From assembly GCF_003144095.1 (NCBI RefSeq), contig NZ_NSKH01000018.1, forward strand, positions 2,599,202 to 2,663,201: a DNA stretch of 64,000 nt, in the 5' to 3' direction. Below the pieces are notes generated by a model. It did no database searches, was not told where the DNA came from, and was given only the letters and a program-made list of their open reading frames with translations. Source of the stretch: Streptomyces sp. ICBB 8177. GTDB taxonomy: Bacteria > Actinomycetota > Actinomycetes > Streptomycetales > Streptomycetaceae. Position 1 is the first letter of the stretch. Each line of letters starts with the position of its first letter. Positions 5,326 to 53,714 of the stretch are shown piece by piece. Made by a program: the position numbers and the translations under genes.

Positions 5326-5450
5326 GGCGCCAGGGTCGCGCCGGGCGGCCGGGCGGCGCGTCCTCGCGCCCGGGGCGCCGGTGCGTGAGGGAGCGCGGAG
5401 GGGGCGTGCGCGTCCGGCGGTACGCCCCGACTTGTTGACGCTTGCACAGC

Positions 5451-5459
5451 TTGTCCACA
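5451..5459 (+). other. DnaA box (perfect TTGTCCACA)
   Basis: The nonamer TTGTCCACA is the consensus DnaA binding site of Streptomyces. It lies in the 248-bp gap between proS and the zincin-like gene, in a locally AT-richer patch that also holds TTGTTGAC and TTGCACAGC. One of three such boxes in the window. Confidence 0.55.
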
Positions 5460-5573
5460 GACATCCGCACCCGCCCTCAGTCGGATGCATGAGCCCGAAC
5501 TGACGAGTACGTGCAAATTATTTGGGATGCCCTGGAATCGGAACACCAGGGCACCTCCCCTCGTTGTCACGAC

Positions 5574-25137: not shown

Positions 25138-25173
25138 CCCGGACCGTTACCCTGGAAGGGCTGGCCGCCGACA

Positions 25174-25200
25174 GGTGCCCCGCCCTTGCGGGGGTGGTCC
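25174..25200 (+). repeat. Orphan type I-E CRISPR-repeat-like palindrome
   Basis: The 27-bp segment from 25174 contains CCCCGC-cctt-GCGGGG followed by GTGGTCC. This is the layout of actinobacterial type I-E CRISPR repeats (TCCCCGC-loop-GCGGGG-GTGGTCC). It stands alone in the 153-bp gap between cdsA and rlmN. It could equally be the cdsA terminator hairpin. Confidence 0.4.
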
Positions 25201-25290
25201 GGTGAGGTCTCCGGGCGCCGGCATGACCCGTCCCTGGTCCCCGCGCCCGCGGGGCTCGCAGTCACCGTGCCCTTGAGGAGTCCGCGTTTC

Positions 25291-26400
25291 ATGGCGCCCG
25301 CCCCCGGAGAACTGACCTTCGCCGTACCCCGCGGTGCCAAGAAGCCCCCGCGGCACCTCGCCGACCTCACGCCCGCCGAGCGTCGCGAGGCCGTCGCCGC
25401 GCTCGGCGAGAAGCCGTTCCGCGCCAAGCAGCTGTCGCAGCACTACTTCGCGCGCTACGCGGACGACCCGGCGGCCTGGACCGACATCCCGGCCGCCGCC
25501 CGCGAGAAGCTCGCCTCAGACCTGCTGCCCGAGCTGATGAGCGTCGTGCGCAACGTCTCCTGCGACCACGACACCACCCGCAAGACGCTGTGGCGGCTGT
25601 TCGACGGGACGCTGGTCGAGTCGGTGCTGATGCGCTACCCGGACCGGGTCACGATGTGCATCAGCTCGCAGGCCGGCTGCGGCATGAACTGCCCGTTCTG
25701 CGCGACCGGCCAGGCCGGCCTCACCCGCAACCTGTCCACCGCGGAGATCGTCCACCAGATCGTCGCCGGGATGCGCTCGCTGCGCGACGGTGAGATCCCC
25801 GGCGGCCCGGCCCGGCTGAGCAACATCGTCTTCATGGGCATGGGCGAGCCGCTGGCCAACTACAACCGGGTGCTCGGCGCGATCCGCCGCCTCACCGACC
25901 CCGAGCCGGACGGCCTCGGCCTGTCGCAGCGCGGCATCACGGTCTCCACGGTCGGGCTGGTTCCGGCGATGCTGCGGTTCGCCGACGAGGGGCTCAAGTG
26001 CCGGCTGGCGGTCTCGCTGCACGCGCCGGACGATGAGCTGCGCGACACCCTGGTGCCGGTCAACACCCGCTGGAAGGTCCGCGAGGTGCTGGACGCCGCC
26101 TGGCACTACGCCGAGGTCTCCGGCCGCCGGATCTCCGTCGAGTACGCGCTGATCAAGGACATCAACGACCAGGCGTGGCGGGCCGACCTGCTGGGACGGC
26201 TGCTCAAGGGCCACCGCGTGCACGTCAACCTGATCCCGCTCAACCCCACGCCCGGCTCCAAGTGGACCGCGTCGCGGCCGGAGGACGAGAAGGCGTTCGT
26301 GCGCGCGCTGGAGGCGCATGGCGTCCCGGTGACGGTGCGCGACACCCGCGGCCAGGAGATCGACGGCGCCTGCGGCCAGCTCGCGGCGGCGGAGCGCTGA
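25291..26400 (+). CDS. rlmN: Dual-specificity 23S rRNA/tRNA C2-adenine methyltransferase RlmN
   Basis: Radical-SAM enzyme that methylates A2503 of 23S rRNA and A37 of some tRNAs. It has 369 residues, the CxxxCxxC cluster Cys130/134/137 (CGMNCPFC), and both catalytic cysteines: Cys123 in [10 protein letters not shown] and Cys361 in [16 protein letters not shown]-type [12 protein letters not shown] and the C-terminal VTVRDTRG are also present. ATG 25291 is preferred because GAGGAG (25275-25280) lies 10 bp before it; the frame is open further upstream. Confidence 0.95.
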
Positions 26401-51138: not shown

Positions 51139-51230
51139 GGCGAACAGCCGTGACGCCGACACCCTGGTCCTTGTAGCGGCCGGTGCCGTCTCGCGAGACT
51201 GGGAACGAGGCTCTGAGAGGAAGGTCTGCC

Positions 51231-52736
51231 GTGACCGCTAAGCACATCACGCACTGGATCGCCGGGCAGGAATGGTCCGGGACCGCCGAACGGCGGGGCG
51301 ACGTGTACGACCCGGCGACCGGTCGGGTGTCGGGGCACGTGGACTTCGCCTCGATCGCCGAGGTCGACCAGGCGGTCGGCGCGGCCGTCGAGGCGTTCGC
51401 CGGGTGGCGCGACGCGTCGGTGGCCAAGCGCACCCAGGTGCTGTTCGCCTTCCGCGAGCTGCTCAACGCGCACCGCGACGAGCTGGCCGCGATCATCGTC
51501 TCGGAACACGGCAAGGTGCACTCCGACGCGCTCGGCGAGATCGCCCGCGGCCTGGAGGTCGTCGAGTACGCCTGCGGCATCCCGCAGCTGATCAAGGGCG
51601 GCTTCACCGAGCAGGCGTCCACCGGCATCGACGTCTACTCCATCCGCCAGCCGCTCGGCCCGGTCGCCATCATCTCGCCGTTCAACTTCCCCGCGATGGT
51701 GCCGATGTGGTTCTTCCCCATCGCCGTCGCGGCCGGCAACACCGTGATCGTCAAGCCGTCCGAGAAGGACCCGTCGGCCGCCAACTTCCTGGCCGGGCTG
51801 TGGAAGCGGGCGGGCCTGCCCGACGGCGTCTTCAACGTCGTGCACGGCGACAAGGTGGCCGTCGACCGCCTCCTGGAGCACCCGGACGTCAAGTCCGTCT
51901 CCTTCGTCGGCTCCACCCCGATCGCCCGCTACGTCTACGAGACCGGCACCCGCTACGGCAAGCGCGTCCAGGCCCTCGGCGGTGCCAAGAACCACATGCT
52001 GGTGCTGCCCGACGCCGACCTCGACCTCGCCGCCGACGCGGCCGTCAACGCGGGCTTCGGCGCCGCGGGCGAGCGCTGCATGGCGGTGTCCGTCCTGGTC
52101 GCCGTGGACCCGGTGGGCGACGAACTGGTCGCGAAGATCAAGGAGCGCATGGCCACCCTCAAGGTCGGCCCCGGGTGCGCCCCCGACTCCGAGATGGGCC
52201 CGCTGGTCACCGGGGCCCACCGCGACAAGGTCACCGCCTACCTCGACGCCGGCGTCGCCGACGGCGCCACCCTCGCCGTCGACGGCCGCGAGCACGCCAT
52301 CGCGGGCGAGGACAGCGCCGACGGCTTCTGGCTCGGCCCGACCCTCTTCGACGACGTCAAGCCCGGCATGTCGGTCTACAACGACGAGATCTTCGGCCCC
52401 GTCCTGTCCGTCGTCCGGGTGGGCTCGTACGACGAGGGCCTGGAGCTGATCAACGCCAACCCCTACGGCAACGGCACCGCGCTGTTCACCAACGACGGCG
52501 GCGCCGCCCGGCGCTTCCAGCGCGAGGTGGAGGTCGGCATGGTCGGCATCAACGTGCCGATCCCGGTGCCGGTCGCGTACTACAGCTTCGGCGGCTGGAA
52601 GGCGTCCCTGTTCGGCGACACCCACGCCTACGGCGAGGACGGGGTCCGCTTCTTCACCCGCGGCAAGGCCGTCACCCAGCGCTGGCTCGACCCGTCGCAC
52701 GGAGGGCTGAATTTGGGATTCCCCACGAACGACTGA
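51231..52736 (+). CDS. mmsA: Methylmalonate-semialdehyde dehydrogenase (CoA-acylating)
   Basis: Oxidises methylmalonate or malonate semialdehyde to propionyl-CoA or acetyl-CoA in valine, pyrimidine and beta-alanine catabolism. The 501-residue protein has the family's catalytic Cys283 in AAGERCMAVSV, GGAKNHMLVLPDADLD, SPFNFPAMVPMWFFP, and lacks the usual general-base ELGGK Glu (here ALGGAK), which is the hallmark of CoA-acylating members. GTG 51231 is chosen because GAGGAAGG precedes it at good distance; a GTG at 51183 is in frame. No other genes of valine catabolism are adjacent. Confidence 0.93.
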   Translation: MTAKHITHWIAGQEWSGTAERRGDVYDPATGRVSGHVDFASIAEVDQAVGAAVEAFAGWRDASVAKRTQVLFAFRELLNAHRDELAAIIVSEHGKVHSDALGEIARGLEVVEYACGIPQLIKGGFTEQASTGIDVYSIRQPLGPVAIISPFNFPAMVPMWFFPIAVAAGNTVIVKPSEKDPSAANFLAGLWKRAGLPDGVFNVVHGDKVAVDRLLEHPDVKSVSFVGSTPIARYVYETGTRYGKRVQALGGAKNHMLVLPDADLDLAADAAVNAGFGAAGERCMAVSVLVAVDPVGDELVAKIKERMATLKVGPGCAPDSEMGPLVTGAHRDKVTAYLDAGVADGATLAVDGREHAIAGEDSADGFWLGPTLFDDVKPGMSVYNDEIFGPVLSVVRVGSYDEGLELINANPYGNGTALFTNDGGAARRFQREVEVGMVGINVPIPVPVAYYSFGGWKASLFGDTHAYGEDGVRFFTRGKAVTQRWLDPSHGGLNLGFPTND

Positions 52737-52769
52737 GTCCTGCGGCCCGTGGCGGGGGGGCCACAGGCC

Positions 52770-52856
52770 AGGAAGCCCCGCGGGCGCGGGGAACAGCTCG
52801 ATCCGTCGCACGGCGGCACCAAGCTGGGCGGACCACCCCCACCTCGTGGGGACTCG
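52770..52856 (-). CRISPR. Possible two-repeat type I-E CRISPR relic without cas genes
   Basis: On the minus strand two CRISPR-repeat-like palindromes lie 59 bp apart: TCCCCACGAGGTGGGG followed by GTGGTCC (52854-52830) and TCCCCGCGCCCGCGGGG followed by CTTCC (52793-52771). Both match the scheme TCCCCGC-loop-GCGGGG-GTGGTCC of actinobacterial type I-E repeats, and 33 bp lie between them, a normal I-E spacer length. The spacer (52797-52829) resembles the 3' end of mmsA. The whole unit fits in the 120-bp gap between convergent genes. Two degenerate repeats are weak evidence; terminator hairpins are the main alternative. Confidence 0.35.
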
Positions 52857-53714
52857 TCAACGACGTGCACAACGATGGCGGAGGGCGGAGATCACGACCG
52901 CGGTCGTGGACACCAACGCCCCCGCCAGGCACCAGCTCGCGGTGACGTCCAGCGGCCAGTGGTAGCCGCGCCACACCAGGCCGGCGCCCACGGCGACGTT
53001 CAACGGCACGGCGGACGCCCACAGCGCCCGCCGTGCCGTCACGCGTTCCGCCGCGGGCGCCAGCGCCAGCGCGGCCAGCCCGTAGGCCGCCGCCGCGGTC
53101 ATGGCGTGCCCGGAAGGGAAGTAGCCGGAGTGCGCGACGAGTCGAGCGGTACCCGGCGCGGGCCGGGCCACGAGTGCCTTGAGAAGCACGACGATCGGCG
53201 CCGCGCAGGCCATCGCCACCGCGTACACCACCGCCTCGCGCCACCGCCCCAGCCGCCACGCCGCCCAGCCGAGCGCCGAGGCGAGCACCGGCAGCGCCAC
53301 CGGCAGATCGCCGAGGTCGGCCAGGAGCTGCGCCACCGGGCGCACCGACCGCTCGGCCGCGGCCTCGCGCAGCACACTCGCGTCCACCGCCCGGTCCCAC
53401 CCGTACAGCGGTCCGTGCGCGGCGACCTGCCAGGCGATCAGCGCGAAGAGGGCCAGGCAGAGCAACGGCGTCCGCGCGAGGGTGAGGAAAGAGTTCGGCC
53501 GCCCTGGAACAGGGGGGAGCGTTCCAGGGCGGCCAGGGCGATCGCCGGGCCGCGCGCCCCGGGGGGTTTGGGGCGGGCGGCCTGCCGATCGGCGAGGATC
53601 GCCGGAGTGCGAGCCACCGGCGTTGTCGTGCGCGAGGGCACTGCTGCGTCGGCGATGGGGAGTCGCCGACAAGGTGTCGTCCGCGGTGACCCGCGAGCGG
53701 GGTGGTTCCTTCAT
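52857..53714 (-). CDS. PAP2 superfamily phosphatase
   Basis: A 285-residue membrane phosphatase. The three phosphatase motifs are present: KALVARPAP (motif 1), YFPSGHAMT (motif 2) and WRGYHWPLDV (motif 3, with catalytic His). Five or six membrane helices fill residues ~78-275. It probably removes phosphate from a lipid such as phosphatidate or undecaprenyl diphosphate. The first ~70 residues are hydrophilic and Pro/Arg-rich, so the true start may lie downstream of ATG 53714. Confidence 0.85.
   Translation of the reverse strand: MKEPPRSRVTADDTLSATPHRRRSSALAHDNAGGSHSGDPRRSAGRPPQTPRGARPGDRPGRPGTLPPVPGRPNSFLTLARTPLLCLALFALIAWQVAAHGPLYGWDRAVDASVLREAAAERSVRPVAQLLADLGDLPVALPVLASALGWAAWRLGRWREAVVYAVAMACAAPIVVLLKALVARPAPGTARLVAHSGYFPSGHAMTAAAAYGLAALALAPAAERVTARRALWASAVPLNVAVGAGLVWRGYHWPLDVTASWCLAGALVSTTAVVISALRHRCARR

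Follow-up and report, generated by a model that had tools for sequence, protein, structure and literature searches.

Ectopic CRISPR repeats lying far from cas genes are little studied, and the space between an mmsA-type aldehyde dehydrogenase gene and a convergent PAP2-family phosphatase gene raises the question of what such a repeat pair is, where its spacer came from and whether it could act on the gene beside it. The pair lies in the 64,000-nucleotide stretch of DNA analysed here (the window), for which a sequence-only reading had offered two explanations, i.e., a relic array with a spacer derived from an mmsA-like gene, or a fragment of mmsA trapped between REP-like palindromes. The locus was compared with the rest of the host genome (G000, 6.33 Mb), with a sister species (G001) and other relatives, and with 395 genomes of the family Streptomycetaceae.

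A solitary type I-E unit between mmsA and the PAP2 gene

The palindromes on the minus strand that had been described as type I-E-like are repeats of that type (Table 1). They form a solitary repeat-spacer-repeat with exact type I-E spacing (29 + 32 nt), the repeat-to-repeat distance equals exactly one period of the host's own arrays, and repeat 2 has the same 17-nt core (CCCCGCGGGCGCGGGGA) as the array repeats. The spacer, previously given as 33 bp (52797-52829), is present with a length of 32 nt, as base 52829 is the PAM-derived final base of repeat 1. Repeat 1 is degenerate: its stem departs from the array stem CCCCGC/GCGGGG by one paired change (A-T for G-C) and its handle GTGGTCCG departs from the array handle ATGGTCCC in the first and last base. 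The last base of repeat 1 is G in both ectopic units of the window, as an AAG PAM would leave, and C in 35 of the 37 resident array repeats; in the type I-E system of Streptomyces avermitilis the G of the PAM ends up as the last base of the repeat (PMC4762764).

Table 1 Features of the two units in the window, their neighbouring genes and the single repeat on another contig (sequences in the reading direction of the strand given, unless marked otherwise)
Feature	Position	Strand	Details
rlmN-side repeat 1	25173..25201	+	Stem CCCCGC-CCTT-GCGGGG, handle GTGGTCCG; full repeat AGGTGCCCCGCCCTTGCGGGGGTGGTCCG
rlmN-side predicted guide	25194..25254	+	~61 nt
rlmN-side spacer	25202..25233	+	GTGAGGTCTCCGGGCGCCGGCATGACCCGTCC; antisense to relatives' rlmN start (27/32, AAG PAM)
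rlmN-side repeat 2	25234..25262	+	CTGGTCCCCGCGCCCGCGGGG then CTCGCAGT, handle lost; full repeat CTGGTCCCCGCGCCCGCGGGGCTCGCAGT
Matching segment at own rlmN start	25285..25316	-	PAM AAG kept, seed mismatch at position 3
rlmN, 23S rRNA methyltransferase	25291..26400	+	369 aa
mmsA-type aldehyde dehydrogenase	51183..52736	+	ORF start given, homology from near 51234; Pfam Aldedh 8e-138
Protospacer-like segment in own mmsA	52686..52717	-	PAM position 52718-52720 = AAT
mmsA-side repeat 2	52768..52796	-	CTGTTCCCCGCGCCCGCGGGG (52776-52796, stem as in array repeats), then CTTCCTGG where the handle is expected; full repeat CTGTTCCCCGCGCCCGCGGGGCTTCCTGG; plus-strand letters CCAGGAAGCCCCGCGGGCGCGGGGAACAG
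mmsA-side predicted guide	52776..52836	-	~61 nt
mmsA-side spacer	52797..52828	-	CCCAGCTTGGTGCCGCCGTGCGACGGATCGAG; 32 nt, antisense to mmsA 3' end
mmsA-side repeat 1 (upstream in minus-strand reading)	52829..52856	-	6-bp stem CCCCAC/GTGGGG, then 8-nt 5' handle GTGGTCCG; full repeat ACGAGTCCCCACGAGGTGGGGGTGGTCCG; plus-strand letters CGGACCACCCCCACCTCGTGGGGACTCG
PAP2-family phosphatase	52857..53714	-	Convergent with mmsA
Single repeat at the mqnL-mqnP junction	L084 about 5440-5560; G000:C22:571536	-	Near-intact type I-E repeat, another contig

Two genuine type I-E arrays (16 and 21 repeats, 61-bp period) are present on the unit's own contig, and cas3, cse1, cse2, cas7e, cas5e, cas6e, and cas1 were identified between them with Pfam. 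This operon and its arrays lie ~1.5 Mb from the mmsA-side unit, so that the earlier statement that no cas genes are present is correct for the window and wrong for the genome. When the cas1 reading frame (L081:4313-5263, minus strand) was compared with the Pfam Cas1 model, only ~100 of 316 residues were covered.

The repeat motif is rare in the host. Searching the 6.3 Mb with the pattern CCCCN{6,9}GGGGNTGGTCC returned the 37 array repeats and three solitary places, as compared with one match for the reversed control pattern. The solitary places are the mmsA-side unit, position 25178 of the window (before rlmN), and a site before mqnP on another contig. The sequence-only reading would have fallen back on a terminator region if relatives carried unrelated hairpins here or if the genome held no similar repeats elsewhere, and neither situation was found. 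The unit differs from an adaptive CRISPR array in having two divergent repeats and no leader, as no array-leader-like sequence was found upstream of it. Between the conserved part of mmsA and that of the PAP2 gene lie ~177 bp in the host vs. ~20 bp in the sister species. About one period from repeat 1, the sequence TCCACGACCGCGGTCGTGATCTCC (52888-52915, minus strand) may be a third, further decayed repeat, and it falls in a C-terminal tail of the PAP2 protein that is absent from the sister species.

Ordinary hairpins or terminators, combined with a chance or duplicated mmsA fragment, would fit an intergenic site between convergent genes in a genome where GC-rich palindromes are common, but we regard this explanation as very improbable, given the specificity of the motif, the exact period, the array-identical core, a homology limited to the spacer, the AAG PAM found in relatives, and the recurrence of such units. 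A REP-like or terminator origin was rejected on the rarity of the motif, which, unlike dispersed REP-like repeats of Streptomyces, occurs at three solitary places only, and on the lack of any T-tailed terminator found at the units. A frequent family of dispersed intergenic palindromes (GCGCAGTTCCCCGCGCCCC ... GGGGCGCGGGGAACTGCGCGA; L193, L194, L195) does exist in the host and shows a partial likeness to type I-E repeats; these GGGGCGCGGGGAACTGCGCGA-type repeats form a family distinct from the palindromes of the mmsA-side unit. As, in addition, the core of the latter is that of the array repeat and the homology covers exactly the spacer, an mmsA fragment caught between REP-like palindromes finds no support. 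A plain duplication of the mmsA end was also dismissed, as the homology ends at the spacer borders and the mmsA of relatives fits better than the host's own. The same applies to a homing guide of a CRISPR-transposon, since its geometry would place the insertion within mmsA itself and an unsystematic look at the surroundings showed no transposon genes.

Origin of the mmsA-type spacer and the host's own allele

As described before, the spacer matches the 3' end of the host's mmsA at 24 of 33 positions, with 18 of the first 20 identical, both segments encode LDPSHGG, and the similarity does not continue into either repeat; with base 52829 left out, the count is 24/32. By itself, a 24/33 match in the 64-kb window is within chance, as real array spacers reach 20-25/32 there. 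The mmsA genes of several relatives match better, in frame and over the spacer only, with up to 28/32 (29/33), while the 37 array spacers used as a control reached a maximum of 24/32 in 362 kb of the relatives' DNA (both strands counted). The match is beyond chance because this value in relatives comes together with the array-identical core, the rare motif and the exact period. The spacer is therefore of mmsA type, with an AAG PAM at the protospacer in relatives, although its exact source sequence was not found.

In 12 of 27 relatives, but not in the host, the mmsA target has an AAG PAM together with a perfect seed. Type I-E Cascade ignores protospacer positions 6, 12, 18, 24, and 30. When these were masked, mmsA targets with at most three mismatches were counted in 53 of the 395 family genomes, the best of them having one mismatch.

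The PAM at the corresponding site on the minus strand is AAT in the host, as against AAG in the sister species and in many relatives, and the host's mmsA has in addition a seed mismatch at position 5. The mmsA genes of host and sister species differ at 36 nucleotides over 500 codons. Five of these differences, all synonymous, fall within the 12 codons of the protospacer, which makes it the densest window of the gene, unequalled elsewhere (0.86 expected, Poisson P about 0.002). Rare codons (GGA, AAT, TTG, GGA) are found in the host's protospacer, with the caveat that a relative without the unit (G007) likewise has four rare codons at this segment. With 24/32 identities, an AAT PAM and a mismatched seed, the host's chromosome offers this spacer a similar site that falls short of a canonical interference target; as far as can be judged from sequence, synonymous changes in PAM and seed protect the own mmsA.

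Units beside rlmN and in other Streptomycetaceae

The second unit of the window lies before rlmN. The reverse complement of its spacer (GGACGGGTCATGCCGGCGCCCGGAGACCTCAC) agrees with the beginning of rlmN in relatives (up to 27/32, AAG PAM), and 10 of 19 relatives, though not the host, have a target that combines this PAM with a perfect seed. The start of the host's rlmN has been reshaped (MAPAPGEL vs. MPAPGEL), its first codons are among the parts of the gene most changed relative to the sister species, and a promoter-like TCTGCGACACTGG that is conserved upstream of relatives' rlmN is missing. An exact search of GTDB genomes for the rlmN spacer plus handle gave just two chance coding matches.

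The 395 Streptomycetaceae genomes were searched for copies of repeat 1 bearing the handle of the two units, and the solitary cases were taken. For each, the 33 nt following repeat 1 were compared with the flanks, using all other spacers as the null. Gene identities were obtained with Pfam, thrS and recN being named from sequence together with matches to class-II synthetase or SMC_N. In six further solitary units, the spacer encodes, in frame, part of a housekeeping gene next to the unit: cobN in G090 (NVDTREHELA in the spacer vs. NVDSREHDIV in the own gene) and in G279 (KSNPWALRGM vs. KSNPWALRGI), a class II DAHP synthase gene in G109 (KLKTLLQIGA vs. KLKTLLQMGA), hisS in G117 (GTYDLTPPSS vs. 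GTYDLLPPDS), thrS in G208, and recN in G390. Four of the six reach 25-26/33 to the neighbour (p 0.004-0.008 against all other spacers) and a fifth reaches 25/33 to a gene at 1.3 kb. The cobN unit of G090, the second genome with cas genes, has 22/33 to its own gene and was recognised by the in-frame peptide and by a match to the cobN of G279 (25/32, AAG PAM); seven of the 14 codons of its protospacer are rare and the PAM is AAA. In both cobN cases the unit sits at one common site downstream of the gene, with alignable flanks and repeats, and the two spacers differ, each matching another part of cobN. Most other single repeat-like matches in the family had no neighbour match, and two (L210 and L224) were left out of the count, since they look like low-complexity chance. 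A lone type I-E repeat was also seen in G023 (L112; G023:C44:17168), directly after an apparent T-arm of a tRNA gene (GTCGCAGGTTCGA).

Across the eight units, the 6-bp stem of repeat 2 is kept throughout, seven times as CCCCGC/GCGGGG and once as ACCCGC/GCGGGT (a paired change), and the 8 nt following this stem resemble the handle at about the level of chance (23 of 64 positions). The handle of repeat 1 was part of the search pattern and repeat 2 lay outside it, so the retention of the repeat 2 stem is not a selection bias. All eight spacers have the codon phase expected of AAG PAMs in GC-rich genes. None of the own targets combines an AAG PAM with an intact seed: the PAM is other than AAG in six of the eight, the seed is intact in four, and for several of the other units the seed of the own gene is retained, the main difference lying in the PAM. 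Mismatches to the own gene favour the positions ignored by Cascade (23/35 vs. 14/35 at other wobble positions, P 0.03), and clusters of rare codons at the own target were found in two cases only. The targets are at the gene start for rlmN, recN, and hisS, near the 3' end for mmsA and thrS, and late in the gene for cobN. Cas7e is absent from five of the seven unit-bearing genomes, which means that most units cannot act now. Such guide-neighbour pairs in related species suggest that the arrangement is recurrent and so far undescribed, and not a hairpin that arose by chance; the literature searched contained no account of lone guides tied to a protected gene beside them.

A candidate guide linked to a protected allele, and its alternatives

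We tentatively read the mmsA-side unit as a one-guide crRNA-like gene directed against unprotected alleles of its neighbour and linked to the protected own allele. The spacer would derive from an mmsA-type gene, from a site with an AAG PAM, and the solitary unit would encode, on the minus strand, a single guide of ~61 nt (8-nt handle GUGGUCCG, 32-nt spacer, 21-nt stem) that could be processed at both ends and loaded into the resident Cascade. This guide would recognise mmsA alleles with an AAG PAM and the seed and spare the own mmsA ~50 bp away, and together with Cascade and Cas3 the module could attack incoming, competing or sister DNA bearing an unprotected allele, resulting in a natural cleave-and-rescue or in a recombination barrier. 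Guide and resistant allele are treated as one module because the own copy is protected, PAM and seed are intact in many relatives and the linkage is tight; being linked in this way would keep the guide and its target gene side by side. The architecture of the unit, the origin of its spacer, the protection of the own allele and the recurrence beside rlmN and six other housekeeping loci are read directly from sequence, whereas transcription, processing by Cas6e, loading into the resident Cascade, cleavage of non-self alleles, and a selective role are steps that we infer. Our confidence is held somewhat below even, because Cas7e is missing from five of the seven genomes, no promoter was recognised (no sigma-70-like one was found near either the mmsA-side or the rlmN-side unit) and the handle is two bases off that of the resident arrays, so that its fit to the resident Cascade is putative.

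Synthetic, engineered Cleave-and-Rescue elements pair a guide against a gene with a linked, recoded resistant copy and carry the nuclease within the element, whereas the units described here have cas genes elsewhere in the genome and a native gene as the resistant copy. The wider claim that Streptomycetaceae carry natural cleave-and-rescue or homing modules, made of a lone type I-E guide and a silently recoded, linked housekeeping allele, seems unlikely to us. If true, the guide-allele pair would resist replacement by unprotected alleles or spread at their expense, in hyphae that recombine or contain several chromosomes, wherever these have Cascade-Cas3. Lone guides with protected alleles would allow one to test the shaping of core genes by CRISPR self-targeting and silent escape, as well as guide-based, allele-level incompatibility in bacteria, and a rule for genome-wide searches is gained, i.e., a lone repeat-spacer-repeat whose spacer is in frame with the neighbour.

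In anatomy, the mmsA-side unit resembles the CreA guides of CreTA modules, a likeness that stops short of shown identity. CreA guides are lone repeat-spacer-repeats outside arrays with the target close by, and their repeats degenerate unequally: the 8-nt 5' handle survives in repeat 1, whereas in repeat 2 it is the 3' handle that survives (PMC8501985, PMC9458426). The corresponding pattern (repeat 1 handle and repeat 2 stem kept) is found in all eight units, the handle having been pre-selected. CreA represses the promoter of an RNA toxin through short seed complementarity (PMC8501985, PMC9458426), whereas the units here match housekeeping coding sequence over ~32 nt and their own target lacks the PAM or the seed. 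Instead of a nearby promoter with a functional PAM, the mmsA-side target is a gene's 3' end with an AAT PAM; that of rlmN overlaps the start codon and has an AAG PAM with a seed mismatch. In Pelobacter carbinolicus, a type I-E spacer in a normal array perfectly matches the own hisS (PMC2923632; review PMC6990116). It is likewise aimed at a housekeeping gene, which is also the target of the G117 unit, but here the guide lies outside any array, next to the gene, whose own copy has been altered. The active type I-E system of S. avermitilis shares the repeat type, the AAG PAM and the PAM G as last repeat base, yet its spacers are in leader-proximal arrays, and the chromosome-derived ones reported for it had no AAG PAM (PMC4762764). 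The Racr units of phages are also solitary CRISPR repeats outside arrays, but they are phage-borne anti-CRISPR RNAs with no linked matching host gene (PMC10651486).

A CreA-like or scaRNA-like cis regulator, in which the guide, through partial complementarity, brings Cascade to its own neighbour gene without cleavage and lowers its expression, would agree with the CreA-like architecture (PMC8501985, PMC9458426). Mismatches at positions that Cascade ignores, together with the seeds kept in four units, mean that recognition of the own gene could have been maintained, and the rlmN, recN, and hisS targets lie at gene starts. We consider it quite unlikely nonetheless, given the six own PAMs other than AAG, the position of the mmsA, thrS, and cobN targets, and an own mmsA in which both PAM and seed are altered, the opposite of keeping recognition.

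The units could instead be fossils of CRISPR self-targeting, in which the mmsA spacer entered, the own gene escaped synonymously and the unit is decaying without function. The position beside the target would then be a product either of the origin (repair or recombination at the cut) or of survivorship. We regard this reading as possible but rather doubtful. The degenerate repeats, the missing Cas7e and the lack of PAM or seed in every own target speak for a fossil, but the decay is not random (exact or paired-change repeat 2 stems next to 8 randomised nucleotides) and the common cobN site holds different spacers, each against cobN. The earlier suggestion of a relic array thus stands in so far as this is a CRISPR unit with an mmsA-type spacer; its relic status is uncertain, because the repeats degenerate in the CreA manner.

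The mqnL-mqnP junction also speaks for a fossil. One near-intact type I-E repeat lies there between imperfect ~20-bp copies of the gene junction, and it is kept in the sister species, which lacks Cas7e (L094; G001:C19:60919), with flanks that differ by about a quarter. An origin by ectopic Cas1-Cas2 spacer integration with duplication of the site was rejected: the duplicates are separated by 74 bp instead of 61 and the insert holds the repeat, so that the junction is not a simple integration event. In G002 (L124), an insertion at the same junction carries another repeat of type I-E-like kind, and the sequence after this repeat begins precisely at the point where the gene reads AAG|GAATACGG.
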